Assembly (NCBI RefSeq): GCF_008520305.1
Contig: NZ_ML703264.1
Coordinates: 209,966-273,965 of the forward strand
Reading direction: 5' to 3'
Length of the DNA stretch: 64,000 bases
Source: Mesorhizobium sp. SARCC-RB16n
GTDB taxonomy: Bacteria; Pseudomonadota; Alphaproteobacteria; Rhizobiales; Rhizobiaceae
A program made the position numbers and the translations under genes. Shown in pieces: positions 55,589-62,224 of this stretch. The notes under the pieces were generated by a model that worked only from the letters and a program-made list of their open reading frames with translations, made no database searches and was not told the DNA's origin. Each line of letters begins with the position of its first letter. Position 1 is the stretch's first letter.

Positions 55589-56596
55589 TCACAGCCAACC
55601 GTTCTTCCTGAACCGCCAATACAGGAAGCAGCAGATCAGCGCGATGATGGTCAGCACCATCGGGTAGCCGTATTCCATTTTCAGCTCCGGCATGTCGGTA
55701 AAGTTCATGCCGTAGATGCCGGCGAATGCGGTTGGCACCGCCAGGATGGCCGCCCATGAGGCGAGTTTCTTCGAGATCGCCGTTTCCTGGCTTTGACCGA
55801 CCAGAAGACTGGCCTCGAAGGCGAAGGCCAGCACCTCGCGCAGGCTGTCGACCTTCTCCTGGACGGTACGGATATGATCCGTCACGTCGCGGAACAGCGG
55901 GTGCATGGCCGAATGGATCTGCGGCAGATCGGCGCTGGTCAGGCGGCGGCAGACTTCCACCAGTGGCAATGCCGCGTTGCGCAGGCGCAGGAGGTCGCGG
56001 CGCAGCATGTAGAGGCGTTCAATGTCGGGGCCGGTCATCGGCTTCAGCAAGACCTGGTCCTCGATCGCCTCGACCTCGTCCTCGATCTGCTCGAGCACGG
56101 GCATGTAGTTGTCGACGATGAAATCGAGAATGGCGTAGAGGACGAAATCCTCGCCCTTGGCCAGCGAATGCGGGCAGCTTTCCCAGTGCTGGCGCACGGC
56201 GGCATAGGAGGTCGACGGGCCGTGCCTGACGCTGACGATGTAGCCTGAGCCGACAAACAGATGTGTCTCGCCGAAGGTGACGCGCCCATCGATCAACTGC
56301 GCCGTGCGGGCGACGATGAACAGCGCGTCGCCATATTGTTCGATCTTCGGCCGCTGATGCGGGTGCTCGGCATCCTCGATCGCCAGCTCATGCAGATGAA
56401 ACTGCGCCTTGACGCGCAACAGAAGTTCGCGGTCGGGTTCAAGCAGCCCGATCCAGACGACGTGTCCCGACTTCTTGGCCCATTCGCCGGCTTCCTCGAT
56501 CGGAATATCGGCGATACGGCGCCCGGCGGTATAGACACCGCAGGCGATGATGCCCGACGTCGGCGGCGAGGGCTTGAACTCCCGGACATATTCCAC
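55589..56596 (-). CDS. corA: CorA-family magnesium/cobalt transporter
   Basis: 335 residues. A large cytoplasmic helical domain (EVEAIEDQVLLKPMTGPDIERLYMLRRDLL) leads to two C-terminal membrane helices with the CorA filter motif YGMNFTDMPEL between them. It forms a homopentameric Mg2+ channel. GTG 56596 is chosen for GGGAGG 5 nt upstream; the frame runs open to 56638. It lies 92 bp downstream of phoU on the same strand. Confidence 0.92.
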   Translation of the reverse strand: MEYVREFKPSPPTSGIIACGVYTAGRRIADIPIEEAGEWAKKSGHVVWIGLLEPDRELLLRVKAQFHLHELAIEDAEHPHQRPKIEQYGDALFIVARTAQLIDGRVTFGETHLFVGSGYIVSVRHGPSTSYAAVRQHWESCPHSLAKGEDFVLYAILDFIVDNYMPVLEQIEDEVEAIEDQVLLKPMTGPDIERLYMLRRDLLRLRNAALPLVEVCRRLTSADLPQIHSAMHPLFRDVTDHIRTVQEKVDSLREVLAFAFEASLLVGQSQETAISKKLASWAAILAVPTAFAGIYGMNFTDMPELKMEYGYPMVLTIIALICCFLYWRFRKNGWL

Positions 56597-56688
56597 CGCA
56601 GCCTCCCGAAAGCATTGCCTTCCCTGGGGAACCAGCAAGCCCGGGATAGCTTAGCGCAATATGATCAAGCGTTCGAGAGGACGTGCGT

Positions 56689-57414
56689 TCACTTCACCGG
56701 TAGCGCCGTGGGGAGGCCGATCTTATCCGTCTTGTCGCTCTTTGGCCGCTCGGCCGGCATCTGGTCGCCGGTGACGATGTAGTAGATGGTCTCGGCGATG
56801 TTGGTGGCGTGATCGCCGATACGCTCGATGTTCTTGGCGCAGAACAGCAGATGTGTACAGGGCGTGATGTTGCGCGGATCTTCCATCATGTAGGTCAGCA
56901 ATTCGCGAAACAGCGACGTGTACATGGCATCGATCTGGTCGTCGCGGTCGCGCACGAAGCCGATCTTGTCGACCGAACGGGACGCGTAGACGTCGAGAAC
57001 TTCCTTCAGCTGGGTCAGCGCCAGGTTGGCCAGGGCCTCCAGGCCGCGGAAAAGGCTGGTCGGCTGACGGCCGTCGATGACGGCGACCACTCGCTTGGCG
57101 ACGTTTTTGCCGAGGTCGCCGACCCGCTCGAGGTCGGCCGAAATGCGGATGGCGCCGACGATCTCGCGCAGGTCCGTCGCCATCGGCTGGCGCTTGGCGA
57201 TGATGACGATCGCCTTGTCGTCGATCTCACGCTGCCCCTCATCGAGCACGAGGTCATCGCGAATGACCTTCTGGGCCAATCCCGGATCGGCATTGACCAA
57301 GGCGGCGACCGCCTGCTCGACCATGCGCTCGGCATGGCCGCCCATCGCGGCGATGCGCTTGGAGAGATATTTCAGTTCCTCGTCAAAGGCGCTCATTGTG
57401 TGAACGGACTGCAT
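56689..57414 (-). CDS. phoU: Phosphate-signalling protein PhoU
   Basis: 241 residues, two three-helix PhoU repeats, with the metal-binding patterns in DLREIVGAIRISADLERVGDLGKNVAKR and HLLFCAKNIERIGDHATNIAE. It links the Pst transporter to PhoR and dampens Pho responses. ATG 57414 has GGGAAGG 10 nt upstream; ATG 57396 is an alternative. It follows phoR after 116 bp without the usual pst genes between. Confidence 0.95.
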   Translation of the reverse strand: MQSVHTMSAFDEELKYLSKRIAAMGGHAERMVEQAVAALVNADPGLAQKVIRDDLVLDEGQREIDDKAIVIIAKRQPMATDLREIVGAIRISADLERVGDLGKNVAKRVVAVIDGRQPTSLFRGLEALANLALTQLKEVLDVYASRSVDKIGFVRDRDDQIDAMYTSLFRELLTYMMEDPRNITPCTHLLFCAKNIERIGDHATNIAETIYYIVTGDQMPAERPKSDKTDKIGLPTALPVK

Positions 57415-57530
57415 GGACGAAATGCCTTCCCGCGGGGTGTCTTGATTTTGAGTCGTTTCCTCGAATCCCCGCTGATACGCTAACCGGATGACAGAAAAAA
57501 GAAACGGTGCCGTGGAAAACTAGGGCAACA

Positions 57531-58796
57531 TCAGTGCGCCGGCAAATGGACCGAGAAGGCGGCGCCCTTGCCGACCTCGGACCTGATCGTCAGCCTGGCG
57601 TTGTGACGCGTCAGGATGTGCTTGACGATCGACAGGCCAAGTCCCGTACCTTTCTGGGTCCGGCTGGTCTCGACATCGATACGATAGAAGCGCTCGGTAA
57701 TGCGCGGGATATGTTCTTCGGGAATGCCGGGGCCAAAATCCCTGATCGTCACGTCGATGCCTGGTTCGGAACCATCTTCGCCGCGCGCGATCGACACCAC
57801 GACGCGCCCGCCCGACTGGCCGTATTTGCAGGCATTTTCCAAAAGGTTCTCGAAGACCTGGAACAGCTCGTCGCGATCGCCCGGCACATCGAGCGGCCCC
57901 TTGGCGAAATCGCGCTCGATGGCGACATTGTTTTCCCGGGCGAGCGGCCCGAGCGAATCGATGACGCTGTCGACGGTCTGGCGCAGATCGACCTCGGTTC
58001 CCGGCTTCAGATAGGGCTTCATCTCCAGCCGCGACAGCGACAGCAGGTCATCGATCAGGCGCGCCATGCGGCCGGTCTGGTTCTGCATGATCTGGAGGAA
58101 CTGCTCGCGCGCCGCCGGATCGTTGCGGGCCGGTCCGCGCAGTGTTTCTATGAAGCCTGCGATCGAGGCCAGCGGGGTGCGCAACTCGTGACTGGCATTG
58201 GCGATGAAGTCGGCGCGCATGCGGTCTATGCGCCTTGCCTCGCTCTGGTCCTTGAAGACCAGCACATAAAGGTCGGTCCCATGCCCGACCGAGGACGCGC
58301 TGACCCGGTAGGCTCGTTCGACAGGCAGTTTCTCGGTGTAGTCGACCACATCCGAAGCGACAGTGCCCGACAGAACACTGTCCAGCAGCGCCTGCATTTC
58401 AGGCGCTCGGAATTTCAGCGGCAGCGATATGTCGGGCGCGATGCCGCCAAAGGCGGCAAAGGCGGCGGCGTTGGCGTGGACGATGGTGGCGGCCTGGTCG
58501 AAGATGATGAGCGGATCGGCGACGGCGGCCGCGAGATATTCGCCCGACAGGCGCTGCAAGCCCATCGCCTCGATTGCCCCGGCGCTCTCGGCGGAATGGC
58601 GCGCACCGCCCTCCGGCAATATTGCCGCCGCCAGCAGCAGGAGCAGCGCCGGTACCAGCACATAGGCGGAAATACCCGCGAAGCCATAGGCGATCAGAAC
58701 CGCCACGACCCCGGCCGCGAGCAGCCAGCGGCGGTTCCACAGCCGGGCGGCGATCGCTTGCCCCGTGCCTTTCTGTTCTGCGCCCAGGTCGGTCAT
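57531..58796 (-). CDS. phoR: Phosphate-regulon sensor kinase PhoR
   Basis: 421 residues. Two close membrane helices near residues 25-65 with almost no periplasmic loop, a PAS domain (ADPLIIFDQAATIVHANAA), HisKA with FIANASHELRTPLASIAG, and ATPase motifs NLLENACKYG, DFGPGIP and GTGLGLSIVKHIL. This order is typical of PhoR. ATG 58796 has GGAGG 11 nt upstream. Neighbouring phoU and ppk2 support the phosphate role; phoB is not in the window. Confidence 0.92.
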   Translation of the reverse strand: MTDLGAEQKGTGQAIAARLWNRRWLLAAGVVAVLIAYGFAGISAYVLVPALLLLLAAAILPEGGARHSAESAGAIEAMGLQRLSGEYLAAAVADPLIIFDQAATIVHANAAAFAAFGGIAPDISLPLKFRAPEMQALLDSVLSGTVASDVVDYTEKLPVERAYRVSASSVGHGTDLYVLVFKDQSEARRIDRMRADFIANASHELRTPLASIAGFIETLRGPARNDPAAREQFLQIMQNQTGRMARLIDDLLSLSRLEMKPYLKPGTEVDLRQTVDSVIDSLGPLARENNVAIERDFAKGPLDVPGDRDELFQVFENLLENACKYGQSGGRVVVSIARGEDGSEPGIDVTIRDFGPGIPEEHIPRITERFYRIDVETSRTQKGTGLGLSIVKHILTRHNARLTIRSEVGKGAAFSVHLPAH

Positions 58797-58901
58797 TCGC
58801 GCGCCCAGCCTCCACCGGTCACACGGCGACGGAAACTTCCGCTGGACCGCTCCGGAGGCTCCCAATAGCATGAGTCCGGATGCTGGAAAGGGTTCGTCTG
58901 C

Positions 58902-59813
58902 ATGAATAATAAGGCCAAGGAAAATTCCGTCACACCAACTTCAGGTCCGCTAAAAGTCAGGATCGGCGGTAAGGAACGGGAGTTCGATATCGAGAATCCC
59001 GTGCTTCCGGACTGGGTCGAAGAGAACAAGCTGGCCGCGGGCGGGTATCCTTACGACAAGAAGATGAAAAGCGAGGAGTATGACGAGACGCTCGAGCATT
59101 TGCAGATCGAGCTGGTCAAGGCGCAAGCATGGCTGCAGGCGACCGGCAAGCGGGCGATGGCGCTGTTCGAGGGGCGTGATGCCGCCGGCAAGGGCGGCAC
59201 GATCTTCGTGCTGCGCCAGTACCTCAATCCGCGCACGGCGCGCAACGTTGCGCTGACCAAGCCGACCCCGACGGAGCTGGGGCAATGGTATTACCAGCGC
59301 TATGCCGACCATTTCCCGACGTCGGGTGAATTCGTCACCTTCGACCGCTCCTGGTACAACCGTGCCGGCGTCGAGCCGGTGATGGGTTTTTGCACCCCCG
59401 AACAGCACGAGAAATTTCTCGACGAGACGCCGCATTTCGAACGAATGATCGTCAACGACGGCATCCATTTCTTCAAATTCTGGCTGAACATCGGCCAGGA
59501 AACGCAGCTCGAGCGCTTTCACGATCGCCGCTACAGCCCCCTGAAGAACTGGAAGTTCTCGCCGATCGACATTGCCGGCATCACCAAGTGGGACGATTAC
59601 ACCAAGGCGCGCGACAGCATGTTCGAGCGCACCCACAAGGAGTTCGCGCCATGGATCATCGTACGGGCCAACGACAAGCGCCGCGCGCGGCTGGCGGTGA
59701 TGCGTCGCATCCTCCTGTCGCTGCCCTATGAGGGGCGCGATCTCGATATTGTCGGCAAGGAAGACAAGAAGATCATCGGCGAAGGCCCATCATTCCTGGG
59801 CAAGCAGGACTGA
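58902..59813 (+). CDS. ppk2: Polyphosphate kinase 2
   Basis: 303 residues, one PPK2 domain: Walker [24 protein letters not shown], Walker [18 protein letters not shown], and the lid [16 protein letters not shown]. Single-domain class I enzymes phosphorylate nucleoside diphosphates with polyphosphate. ATG 58902 is the first start, with a weak ribosome-binding site. It is divergent from phoR (105-bp gap), fitting shared phosphate control, though no clear Pho box was found. Confidence 0.94.
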
Positions 59814-59877: not shown

Positions 59878-60627
59878 CTAGGCCGCCAGGCGCGCGATCC
59901 GCTGCAACCGTCGCAGCGTGGCGTCGTCCTGCAGCGCCTGCTGGAACAGCGATATCTCCTCATCGATGCGCTCGCAAAGTGCCGTGGTGTTGCCCTTGAG
60001 CAGGCCGCGCGTCTGCAGCAACGCAGCAACCGGCTTTTTGGCGAGTTGCCTGGCCCGGCCGAGCGTCGCCTCCTCGACGCCGCCTTCCGGGACGATCTCG
60101 GCGACGAGGCCGAGCGCCCTGGCGTCCTCGGCACGAAGCGTGTCGCCGAGGCAGAAGAAGCGGAAAGCTCCGGCATAGCCGAGCTTCTGCGGTGCCAGGA
60201 TGCTGGTCGCCGCGTCCGGCACCAGGCCGAAATCGACGAACGGCACCCGGAACGTGCTTTTTTCCGACGCGATCACCATGTCGCAATGGAACAGGATGGT
60301 GCAGCCGACGCCGACGGCATCGCCGTCGACACAGGCCAGGATGGGCTTTGGAAACGTCGCCAGCATGCGGAACATGTCGGTGACGGCGGCGATCAGCTTC
60401 TGATGCTTGGTGGCATCCAGGAATTCGGAAAAATCGCCGCCAAGGCAGAAGCAGCCCGCCAGGCCGCGCAGCACGACGACCCGCACCTCATCGTTCTCGG
60501 CGGCTTCGTGGAACGTCCTGGCAAGGCTCTCATAGGCCCTCCTGTCGAGCACCGGCCGGCCGTCATTCGACGATACGGTGACGATCAGCGCGTGGTTGCG
60601 CAGTTCGGGTTGCGGGTGCGCGTTCAT
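59878..60627 (-). CDS. Enoyl-CoA hydratase/isomerase (crotonase) in a quorum-sensing operon
   Basis: 249 residues with a crotonase core: VVLRGLAGCFCLGGDFSEF and ILACVDGDAVGVGCTILFHCD form the oxyanion hole region. Where hydratases carry two catalytic glutamates, this protein reads FRVPFVDFGLVPDAATS: the first Glu is missing and the second is Asp, as in PaaG-type enoyl-CoA isomerases. AGGAGGG is 4 nt before ATG 60627, which overlaps the luxI stop by 4 nt. It probably isomerises an unsaturated acyl chain used by the LuxI enzyme. Confidence 0.85.
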   Translation of the reverse strand: MNAHPQPELRNHALIVTVSSNDGRPVLDRRAYESLARTFHEAAENDEVRVVVLRGLAGCFCLGGDFSEFLDATKHQKLIAAVTDMFRMLATFPKPILACVDGDAVGVGCTILFHCDMVIASEKSTFRVPFVDFGLVPDAATSILAPQKLGYAGAFRFFCLGDTLRAEDARALGLVAEIVPEGGVEEATLGRARQLAKKPVAALLQTRGLLKGNTTALCERIDEEISLFQQALQDDATLRRLQRIARLAA

Positions 60628-61262
60628 GACGCCCTCCTTTGGCCGAACATGTCGGGATATCCCCTGGCCAGTACGGGTGCATGATGATTGCGGCGCGAAC
60701 GCACCACGTCCAGCGTGTGCTCGTTGAAGGTGAGCAGCGTCGCCACGACCTGCTGGTTGCCATAGGTGCGCTGATAGCCCAGCGGCGTCGCCAGGAAGTG
60801 CAGCTGCAATGCGCGCAGCACCCACATCGGCTCGAATTCGATGATCACCTTGTCGACGCCGCGCTTCAGACCCCACTCGACGAAACCGGCTATCAATTCC
60901 GTGCCGACGGTCGAGACGCCGCGCCGGCCATCGCGAAAACCCGGAGCCACCGCATAGCGGGTCAACTCCCAGATGTTGGGGCCCGCCGGCGGCGTTCCTT
61001 CGGAGAGATCGGTCAACACCTCGGTCAACAGATGCGGCCGTGTAGTTGGCAACATCCGCTGATAGCCCGCGACTTCATTGCCCCTGATGACGATCTGATG
61101 CACCGCCTCGTCATGATCGAACTGGTCGACCTCAAACCCGTCGGGGCGACGCAGGTCCTCCCATCCCATTTCCTCGACGAATATCCGATAGCGCAGCCGA
61201 TGGACGGCTTCCCAGAGGTCGGGGCGTTCCATCAATTCTTTGGTCGAAAGACAAAAAAGCAT
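60624..61262 (-). CDS. Acyl-homoserine-lactone synthase (LuxI family)
   Basis: 212 residues. The invariant LuxI residues are present: Arg24, Phe28 and Trp34 in RLRYRIFVEEMGWE, Asp46 and Asp49 in FEVDQFDHD, Arg69 in GYQRML, and Glu99/Arg102 in WELTRYAV. It makes an acyl-homoserine lactone from SAM and an acyl donor. AGGAGA lies 7 nt before ATG 61262. It is the middle gene of luxR-luxI-crotonase. Confidence 0.93.
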   Translation of the reverse strand: MLFCLSTKELMERPDLWEAVHRLRYRIFVEEMGWEDLRRPDGFEVDQFDHDEAVHQIVIRGNEVAGYQRMLPTTRPHLLTEVLTDLSEGTPPAGPNIWELTRYAVAPGFRDGRRGVSTVGTELIAGFVEWGLKRGVDKVIIEFEPMWVLRALQLHFLATPLGYQRTYGNQQVVATLLTFNEHTLDVVRSRRNHHAPVLARGYPDMFGQRRAS

Positions 61263-61315
61263 GCCGTAGTCTCCTGTGTTTCAGGGGAAGATACGGCCGT
61301 GCTTCGGTGCGAAAA

Positions 61316-61331
61316 TTGCGTGATCACGTAG
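61316..61331. promoter_or_regulatory. Dyad between luxR and luxI (candidate lux-type box)
   Basis: Centred on the perfect palindrome CGTGATCACG (61319-61328), extended by partly matching flanks (TTG / TAG). It lies about 55-70 bp upstream of the luxI ATG, where a LuxR-type activator would bind. Confidence 0.45.
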
Positions 61332-61360
61332 GCGAGAAGTTCTAGGCCGGCACGGCCGAC

Positions 61361-62092
61361 CTAGCTAATGTAGCCGCGCCTTATCGCCTCGGCGACTGCC
61401 TGCACCCGGTTGACGGCACCGAGTTTGCTTTTGGCGTTAAGAAGATGTTTCTCCGACGTGTGTTCGGAGATGCCGAGGATTTGCGAAATCTCCCATTCGG
61501 ACTTGCCGACCGCGGCCCATTGCAGGCATTCGCGTTCGCGTGGCGTCAGCTCGATATGGTCGATGGTCTTGGTCGGCATGGTGTGAAGCTGCATGGCGCG
61601 GCCAACAGCATAGGTCGAAACCAGCGAGACCAGGCCGAACTCGGCTGCCGACAGCTCCACAGCCTCGCCCCCCAGGGACACCATGACGATTTCGCCGTCG
61701 AGCGTGATCAGCGGGAAGGCGAGCCCGTCACGCAGCTTGAAGGCGCCGGCATCGCCCATCACTTCGCCACTGCTCTTGTCGATGCGAAGGCCCTGGGCGG
61801 CTTCTCGCCATTGGAACGGCGCCTGCAGCTGTTTCATGTGACTGACGACGGGATCGTGATCGACATAGTTGCGCGTCACATAGCGCTCGAGCCATTCGAC
61901 CGGCCAGTCGCAAAGCAGCACATGCTGCTTTTGCTGACCCGTCGGCGTGCCCGGCTGCGGAACGGTTCCGGCCATGAGTGCGGTCAGGCCGAACTCCGAT
62001 GTTACGCCCAACAGTTTCTCGCAGACCGCGGCCGCCGTTGCGGCGTGCTGTAGCTGGTCTATGTATTCCAGCGTCCGATCGAACTGACTCAT
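61361..62092 (-). CDS. LuxR-family quorum-sensing regulator
   Basis: 243 residues. The N-terminal autoinducer-binding domain keeps the key Trp, Tyr, Asp and second Trp in WLERYVTRNYVDHDPVVSH and FQWREA; the C-terminal helix-turn-helix reads LTPRERECLQWAAVGKSEWEISQILGISEHT. It should respond to the signal of the luxI product downstream. ATG 62092 is chosen by the MSQFDRTLEYID family start; an ATG ten codons upstream is possible. Confidence 0.9.
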   Translation of the reverse strand: MSQFDRTLEYIDQLQHAATAAAVCEKLLGVTSEFGLTALMAGTVPQPGTPTGQQKQHVLLCDWPVEWLERYVTRNYVDHDPVVSHMKQLQAPFQWREAAQGLRIDKSSGEVMGDAGAFKLRDGLAFPLITLDGEIVMVSLGGEAVELSAAEFGLVSLVSTYAVGRAMQLHTMPTKTIDHIELTPRERECLQWAAVGKSEWEISQILGISEHTSEKHLLNAKSKLGAVNRVQAVAEAIRRGYIS

Positions 62093-62204
62093 CGCAACAC
62101 AACCCCATGTTGCCTCATGCATTGAAGTCCATGGTCCACGCCTTGCCGGCACTTCGCCACCGACCACGAATTGCAAAGCGCCCGCTTCCGGTTGTGGTTC
62201 TCGA

Positions 62205-62224
62205 CCCTGGTACCCCCACCAGGG
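62205..62224. promoter_or_regulatory. 20-bp dyad upstream of luxR (candidate lux box)
   Basis: CCCTGG and CCAGGG arms separated by 8 bp give a 20-bp element of the form NNCT-N12-AGNN, the length and pattern of LuxR/RhlR-type boxes. It is 113 bp upstream of luxR and 128 bp before the divergent binding-protein gene, so it may control either. The rest of the 259-bp gap has an AT-rich run near 62280-62320. Confidence 0.5.

Follow-up and report, generated by a model that had tools for sequence, protein, structure and literature searches.

Genes and regulatory features at the luxR-luxI-crotonase locus

Three adjacent genes in the order luxR, luxI and crotonase were found on the minus strand of the window, a 64,000-nucleotide stretch of the Mesorhizobium sp. 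SARCC-RB16n genome. The order was read from the list of open reading frames and the sequence of the window, and Pfam matches supported all three families, confirming that the cluster put forward in the original prediction is present. The luxR gene (61361-62092, minus strand) is 732 bp long and encodes a protein of 243 aa with an autoinducer-binding domain (Autoind_bind, 9e-23) and a helix-turn-helix domain (GerE, 3.5e-16). The luxI gene (60624-61262, minus strand) encodes an AHL synthase of 212 aa (Autoind_synth, 6e-18), and the third gene (59878-60627, minus strand) encodes a crotonase-fold protein of 249 aa (ECH_1, 1e-37), which is predicted here to be an acyl-CoA isomerase. The interval first given for the cluster, 59878 to 62224, was right at the crotonase end, but position 62224 lies about 130 bp past the likely luxR start.

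The crotonase ATG (60627-60625) overlaps the luxI TGA (60626-60624), and the 4-nt overlap that had been predicted between the two genes was found as ATGA at 60624-60627 on the minus strand. This overlap is a minority form. Among 84 loci, the aligned start codon gave it in L001, L003, L005, L081 and L082, where L081 is probably the same record as L001 and L081-L084 may repeat named genomes, and the luxI-crotonase gaps called by the script were 8-16 nt in 76 of the 84. A spacing of -4 was returned by the script for 7/84 loci, which are not seven overlaps because an upstream start had been picked in L002 and L012.

A perfect 10-bp palindrome, CGTGATCACG (61319-61328), lies upstream of luxI with its centre 61.5 bp from the start codon and is a candidate LuxR1 binding site. 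The inverted repeat of M. japonicum MAFF 303099 is likewise centred 61.5 bp upstream of I1 (PMC10470506), a likeness of position. In a dyad scan of the window another dyad, at -90.5, ranked above CGTGATCACG, and the palindrome site was variable over 89 aligned upstream regions, reading for example CGCGATCGCG, and was imperfect in L022, L040 and L072.

Beside the crotonase gene, the region at 55589-59813 carries CorA, PhoU and histidine-kinase genes on the minus strand and a PPK2 gene on the plus strand; a PhoR-type role of this histidine kinase would be a guess from its position. Outside the window, G001 has a row of four genes (L154, 8243-14830) some 7 kb upstream of luxR, on the strand of the quorum-sensing genes. 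The row includes FadJ-like and acyl-CoA-dehydrogenase-like genes, both under the NCBIfam cut-offs, and a thiolase gene over its cut-off. The fourth gene looks by its sequence like a further acyl-CoA dehydrogenase, with no NCBIfam match at 1e-50.

Correspondence to the published R1-I1-mlr5639 circuit

A three-gene circuit, R1-I1-mlr5639, has been described in M. japonicum MAFF 303099, where the I1 product is 2E,4E-C12:2-HSL, and NZP 2213 was shown to make the same signal (PMC10470506). As reported in that paper, deleting mlr5639, the crotonase gene, in frame left little signal, which a plasmid copy restored, and R1 together with the signal activated an I1 reporter. Of nearly 500 Mesorhizobium genomes, about 90% had R1-I1 homologs, and Nitratireductor and Methylopila were also found to carry the trio (PMC10470506). 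The link between mesorhizobial LuxI-crotonase pairs and unsaturated acyl-HSLs, which the original prediction had raised, is thus real, with 2E,4E-C12:2-HSL being dependent on mlr5639.

The window proteins were 92.6% (LuxR), 94.3% (LuxI) and 92.8% (crotonase) identical to those of L022, M. loti DSM 2626, presumably type strain NZP 2213. Judged by such identities, the window trio is orthologous to the R1-I1-mlr5639 circuit; MAFF 303099 was itself absent from the listed loci. The two systems share the linked trio, the common direction of luxI and the crotonase gene, the luxR length (R1 is 732 bp), the palindrome distance and a LuxI of the CoA type, LuxI1 having been classed as acyl-CoA type, and they differ in that luxI and the crotonase gene are separated by 8 bp in MAFF 303099 and overlap by 4 nt here (PMC10470506).

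A search of solved structures returned 5w8a as the best match of the window LuxI (2e-30), together with 6wn0 (4-coumaroyl-HSL synthase, 4e-26), 6wns (4e-24) and 3p2f (1e-18), with LasI at 1e-13 and EsaI at 0.054. The 5w8 synthase structure is presumably BjaI, and by these matches the window LuxI appears closer to the acyl-CoA-using synthases of the BjaI/RpaI type than to the acyl-ACP types.

Among the matches listed in our literature search, PMC10470506 was the sole paper recognised on a LuxI-linked crotonase, and no later biochemistry of mlr5639 was found among them. The system is already published and the finding itself is known; what is added here is the descent of the crotonase, its fixed Asp, its natural losses and a testable reaction.

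Active-site residues of the crotonase

The catalytic pair of enoyl-CoA hydratase is E144/E164. Alignment with an enoyl-CoA hydratase from the nearest genome (L144) showed that the two hydratase Glu columns hold T110 and F130 in the window crotonase, and that the hydratase glycine column holds D138. An identity as enoyl-CoA hydratase was ruled out by T110 and F130 standing in place of the two catalytic Glu. The crotonase was correctly predicted to lack the hydratase Glu pair and to carry Asp at the PaaG column, and D138 is its single candidate catalytic acid. PaaG (1,2-epoxyphenylacetyl-CoA isomerase) shares both the single Asp at this catalytic column, found in 3/3 PaaG rows, and the absence of the Glu pair. 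PaaG D136 has been described as a proton relay (PMC9493321), although a review names the single PaaG acid a glutamate (PMC4498308), against the Asp in the former paper and in the rows here.

The acids of human dienoyl-CoA isomerase are given as D177, E197 and D205 (PMC10709515), and the spacing of residues 110, 130 and 138 (20 and 8 residues) is the same. With the columns set by this spacing and by the hydratase alignment, the Asp-Glu-Asp triad of dienoyl-CoA isomerase was not found in the window crotonase, which has T-F-D: T110 and F130 replace the equivalents of D177 and E197, and the D205 equivalent alone is kept. What the crotonase shares with ECH1/DCI (delta3,5-delta2,4-dienoyl-CoA isomerase) is this Asp and the expected product class, a 2,4-dienoyl-CoA. 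An AlphaFold model of the crotonase, made with an alignment of close relatives only (pLDDT 57.5, pTM 0.41), did not reach the quality needed to locate the acid.

The D138 column was Asp in 85/85 rows (the window and L001-L084) and in L085. It was Glu in 8/8 other LuxI-linked crotonases, of which L086 and L088 are near-copies, in the five best solved relatives of the window crotonase, and in 15/15 unlinked paralogs examined, which were drawn from 33 unlinked matches and are not a random sample. Since four other families keep Glu, the Asp is not needed in every LuxI-crotonase pair.

Descent of the crotonase from ECI-like isomerases

A phylogeny of the crotonase against PaaG had been proposed along with the original prediction. 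In a 33-row tree, the 14 LuxI-linked crotonases used formed one branch (100/100). This branch lay inside a 22-row branch (99/98) shared only with paralogs of the order (PRK06023/NF004681) that we presume from their residues to be ECI-like, and PaaG stood apart. A 34-row tree agreed: its 11 Asp-bearing rows formed a single clade (100/100) with a long stem (0.92 changes per site), and its 8 Glu-bearing rows grouped weakly (71/29), with long branches leaving the inner order of the Glu set unsure. The window crotonase scored 100 bits on the PaaG model TIGR02280, not passing the cut-off of 345, and 193 bits on NF004681 (PRK06023), the nearest NCBIfam model, whose cut-off is 282.

PaaG ancestry of the crotonase was ruled out by the separate PaaG branch in the 33-row tree. 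The claim of a PaaG-type Asp was upheld for the position of the residue but not for its descent. The nearest enzymes by tree and active-site columns are the ECI-like paralogs, in which T and F likewise occupy the two hydratase Glu columns, and which differ from the window crotonase in carrying Glu instead of Asp and in having been found as unlinked matches. These placements indicate that the crotonase descends from single-acid, ECI-like isomerases and not from PaaG. The PaaG-like Asp is most simply read as convergent and derived (Glu to Asp), and linkage to luxI is most simply read as older than this change.

With such kin, the crotonase could be an ordinary delta3,delta2-enoyl-CoA isomerase that would turn a 2E,5Z- into a 3,5-dienoyl-CoA, leaving a second cellular isomerase to finish the 2E,4E-dienoyl-CoA. 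The same product is reached by the classical two steps, ECI and then dienoyl-CoA isomerase, and PaaG too catalyses delta3 to delta2 shifts. The Glu at the acid column of both the closest kin in the genomes examined and the five best solved relatives speaks for this explanation. The fixation of Asp in the Mesorhizobium clade on so long a stem suggests instead a changed job, and a second, unlinked crotonase, present in 20/20 circuit genomes and Glu-bearing in the 4 examined, could do the plain ECI work. We regard the ordinary isomerase as possible but doubtful, and prefer an isomerase whose single Asp moves the double bond in one step.

Distribution of luxI and the crotonase gene

The trio was present in the same order at 80/80 loci (the best 80 of 128 LuxI relatives), with luxR truncated at the edge of the contig in L006, and this constancy shows that the gene order is not due to chance. 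Across 146 genomes of the genus, searched with cut-offs of E <= 1e-80 for LuxI and E <= 1e-70 for the crotonase, luxI was present in 130 and the crotonase gene in 127; three genomes (G009, G423 and G461) had luxI without the crotonase gene, 16 had neither, and none had the crotonase gene without luxI at these cut-offs. The dN/dS of the crotonase gene was 0.09-0.15 between the window and five loci.

Order-wide, LuxI was found at E <= 1e-30 in 40 of 397 genomes, at 46 places, of which 39 were taken (seven R1-I1 rows of the genus were left out) together with the G009 locus. A crotonase gene lay beside luxI in 9/39 places (L085, L086, L088, L090, L091, L092, L093, L095 and L099), and the linkage recurs in four other families with the same gene order. 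No crotonase gene was found beside luxI in the remaining 30/39 places by tblastn at E <= 1e-4 within about 4 kb on each side, a stretch that was sometimes cut by the contig; these places include L096, L098, L087 and L089. A quick tree of 54 LuxI rows placed the pairs in one 28-row branch (SH-aLRT 93), which also holds four rows without a crotonase and the three Mesorhizobium losses. The four crotonase-less LuxIs inside this crotonase-linked branch, L089 (61%), L087, L102 and L111, were counted against our main reading.

L096 and L098 represent a second Mesorhizobium LuxI, 47-51% identical and without a crotonase, which is followed by a gene that reads as LysR-like. G052, from another family, carries two near-identical LuxI genes, L088 with a linked crotonase and L087 without one in the stretch searched.

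The crotonase might also act only in fatty-acid degradation and affect the signal indirectly through the acyl-CoA supply. Enzymes of beta-oxidation often have the crotonase fold, and beta-oxidation-type genes lie upstream of luxR in G001. This explanation is very improbable given that the gene never occurred without luxI in the 146 genomes, that the hydratase Glu pair is absent, and that the linkage to LuxI recurs beyond the genus in an unchanged order.

Natural losses of the crotonase gene

Three related Mesorhizobium species lack an intact crotonase gene. An internal stretch and the frame are lost in G423 (L140), a C-terminal remnant alone is left in G009 (L104), and no crotonase was found at the locus of G461 (L141). 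As read from the loci, the N-terminus missing in L104 is still there in L140, and L104 retains a few codons absent from L140; the deletions in L140 and L104 are thus separate, and the gene was lost by at least two different deletions. Both luxR and luxI are retained at all three loci, as are the PPK2 and solute-binding-protein genes on the flanks. In L104 and L141 the luxR C-terminus (about residues 216-243) is also present a second time, as a short stretch between luxR and luxI.

The LuxIs of the three species formed one clade (SH-aLRT 99 in the 54-row quick tree), and their luxI genes still appeared constrained, with dN/dS of 0.08-0.16. This clade had 6 changes in LuxI and 9 in LuxR at otherwise invariant sites, the most among 84 LuxI and 80 LuxR clusters, and the sister pair L079 and L085 had 3 such changes in LuxI and 3 in LuxR. 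Upstream of luxI, the palindrome was altered in all three species, but it was altered as well in L072, where the crotonase is retained. The pattern is suggestive of a crotonase loss around a change of signal, and long isolation of the clade on its own stem could also explain it. These species are natural knock-outs, with luxR1-luxI1 intact and the crotonase gene decayed or missing, and their signal should differ.

A proposed route to the signal precursor

We consider it likely that the three genes form an R1-I1-crotonase quorum-sensing circuit in which the crotonase has an isomerase role. This reading is supported by the orthology, by the close co-occurrence of the genes, and by the low dN/dS and the single-acid active site, derived from ECI-like enzymes, of the crotonase. 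The earlier suggestion that the crotonase may move or set a double bond in the acyl donor gains support from the published mlr5639 genetics and the isomerase-type active site. The authors of the circuit study hypothesised that the mlr5639 crotonase makes the CoA substrate and called for further biochemistry (PMC10470506).

In the route that we propose, three rounds of beta-oxidation would shorten cis-vaccenate (18:1 11Z) to 5Z-C12:1, and one dehydrogenation would give 2E,5Z-dodecadienoyl-CoA. We name this compound as the exact crotonase substrate only tentatively, with confidence a little short of even. The crotonase would shift its 5Z bond into conjugation to yield 2E,4E-dodecadienoyl-CoA: D138 would take the doubly allylic C4 proton and return a proton at C6, one acid on that side could suffice, and an acid at C2 would not be required since the 2E bond stays. 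LuxI1 would join S-adenosylmethionine to 2E,4E-dodecadienoyl-CoA, and LuxR1 with the product would activate the luxI promoter, the crotonase gene being presumably co-transcribed. D138 and the proposed reaction offer a definite, testable answer to the step left open in the published description of the circuit (PMC10470506).

Several published observations touch on this route. C18:1 w7c/w6c was reported as the main fatty acid of M. koreense, at 49.2% (PMC11473501). Roseobacters make 2E,5Z-C12:2-HSL, for which the usual omega-7 position was noted, and the discoverers of this signal considered a conjugation shift to 2E,4E (PMC6356624). Other signals given for Alphaproteobacteria are 2E,7Z-C14:2 and 2E,11Z-C18:2 (PMC10470506), which by our own reasoning would be 2E-intermediates of earlier rounds for which no isomerase is needed. 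No proposal of a vaccenate or beta-oxidation origin for the Mesorhizobium signal was found among the matches listed in a search that had subscription journals and preprints outside its reach.

5Z-C12 intermediates arise in fatty-acid synthesis as well, and the precursor could therefore have a source other than beta-oxidation. The donor could then be 2E,5Z-C12:2 on ACP or a product of its transfer to CoA, with the crotonase step unchanged. Elongation by the FabA/FabB route normally includes a 5Z-C12 intermediate, which favours such a donor, as does 3R-OH-5Z-C12:1-HSL, made by Methylobacterium (PMC10790750). The acyl-CoA class assigned to LuxI1 (PMC10470506) and the acyl-CoA type of the nearest solved relatives of the window LuxI argue against it, and we consider an origin in synthesis fairly improbable.

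Returning to the route from vaccenate, we can extend it to a scenario for the whole clade, which is possible but in our view rather unlikely to hold. The change from Glu to Asp on the Mesorhizobium stem would have converted the proton shuttle from C2/C4 to C4/C6, creating a one-step 2E,5Z to 2E,4E isomerase, and the signal would report the turnover of vaccenate lipids. In one clade, LuxI1 and LuxR1 would have shifted to a different signal that probably lacks the conjugated diene, and at least two different deletions would have removed the enzyme in the course of this shift. If the scenario is true, the identity of the signal in these rhizobia would be set by an isomerase that was gained, retuned and lost beside luxI.
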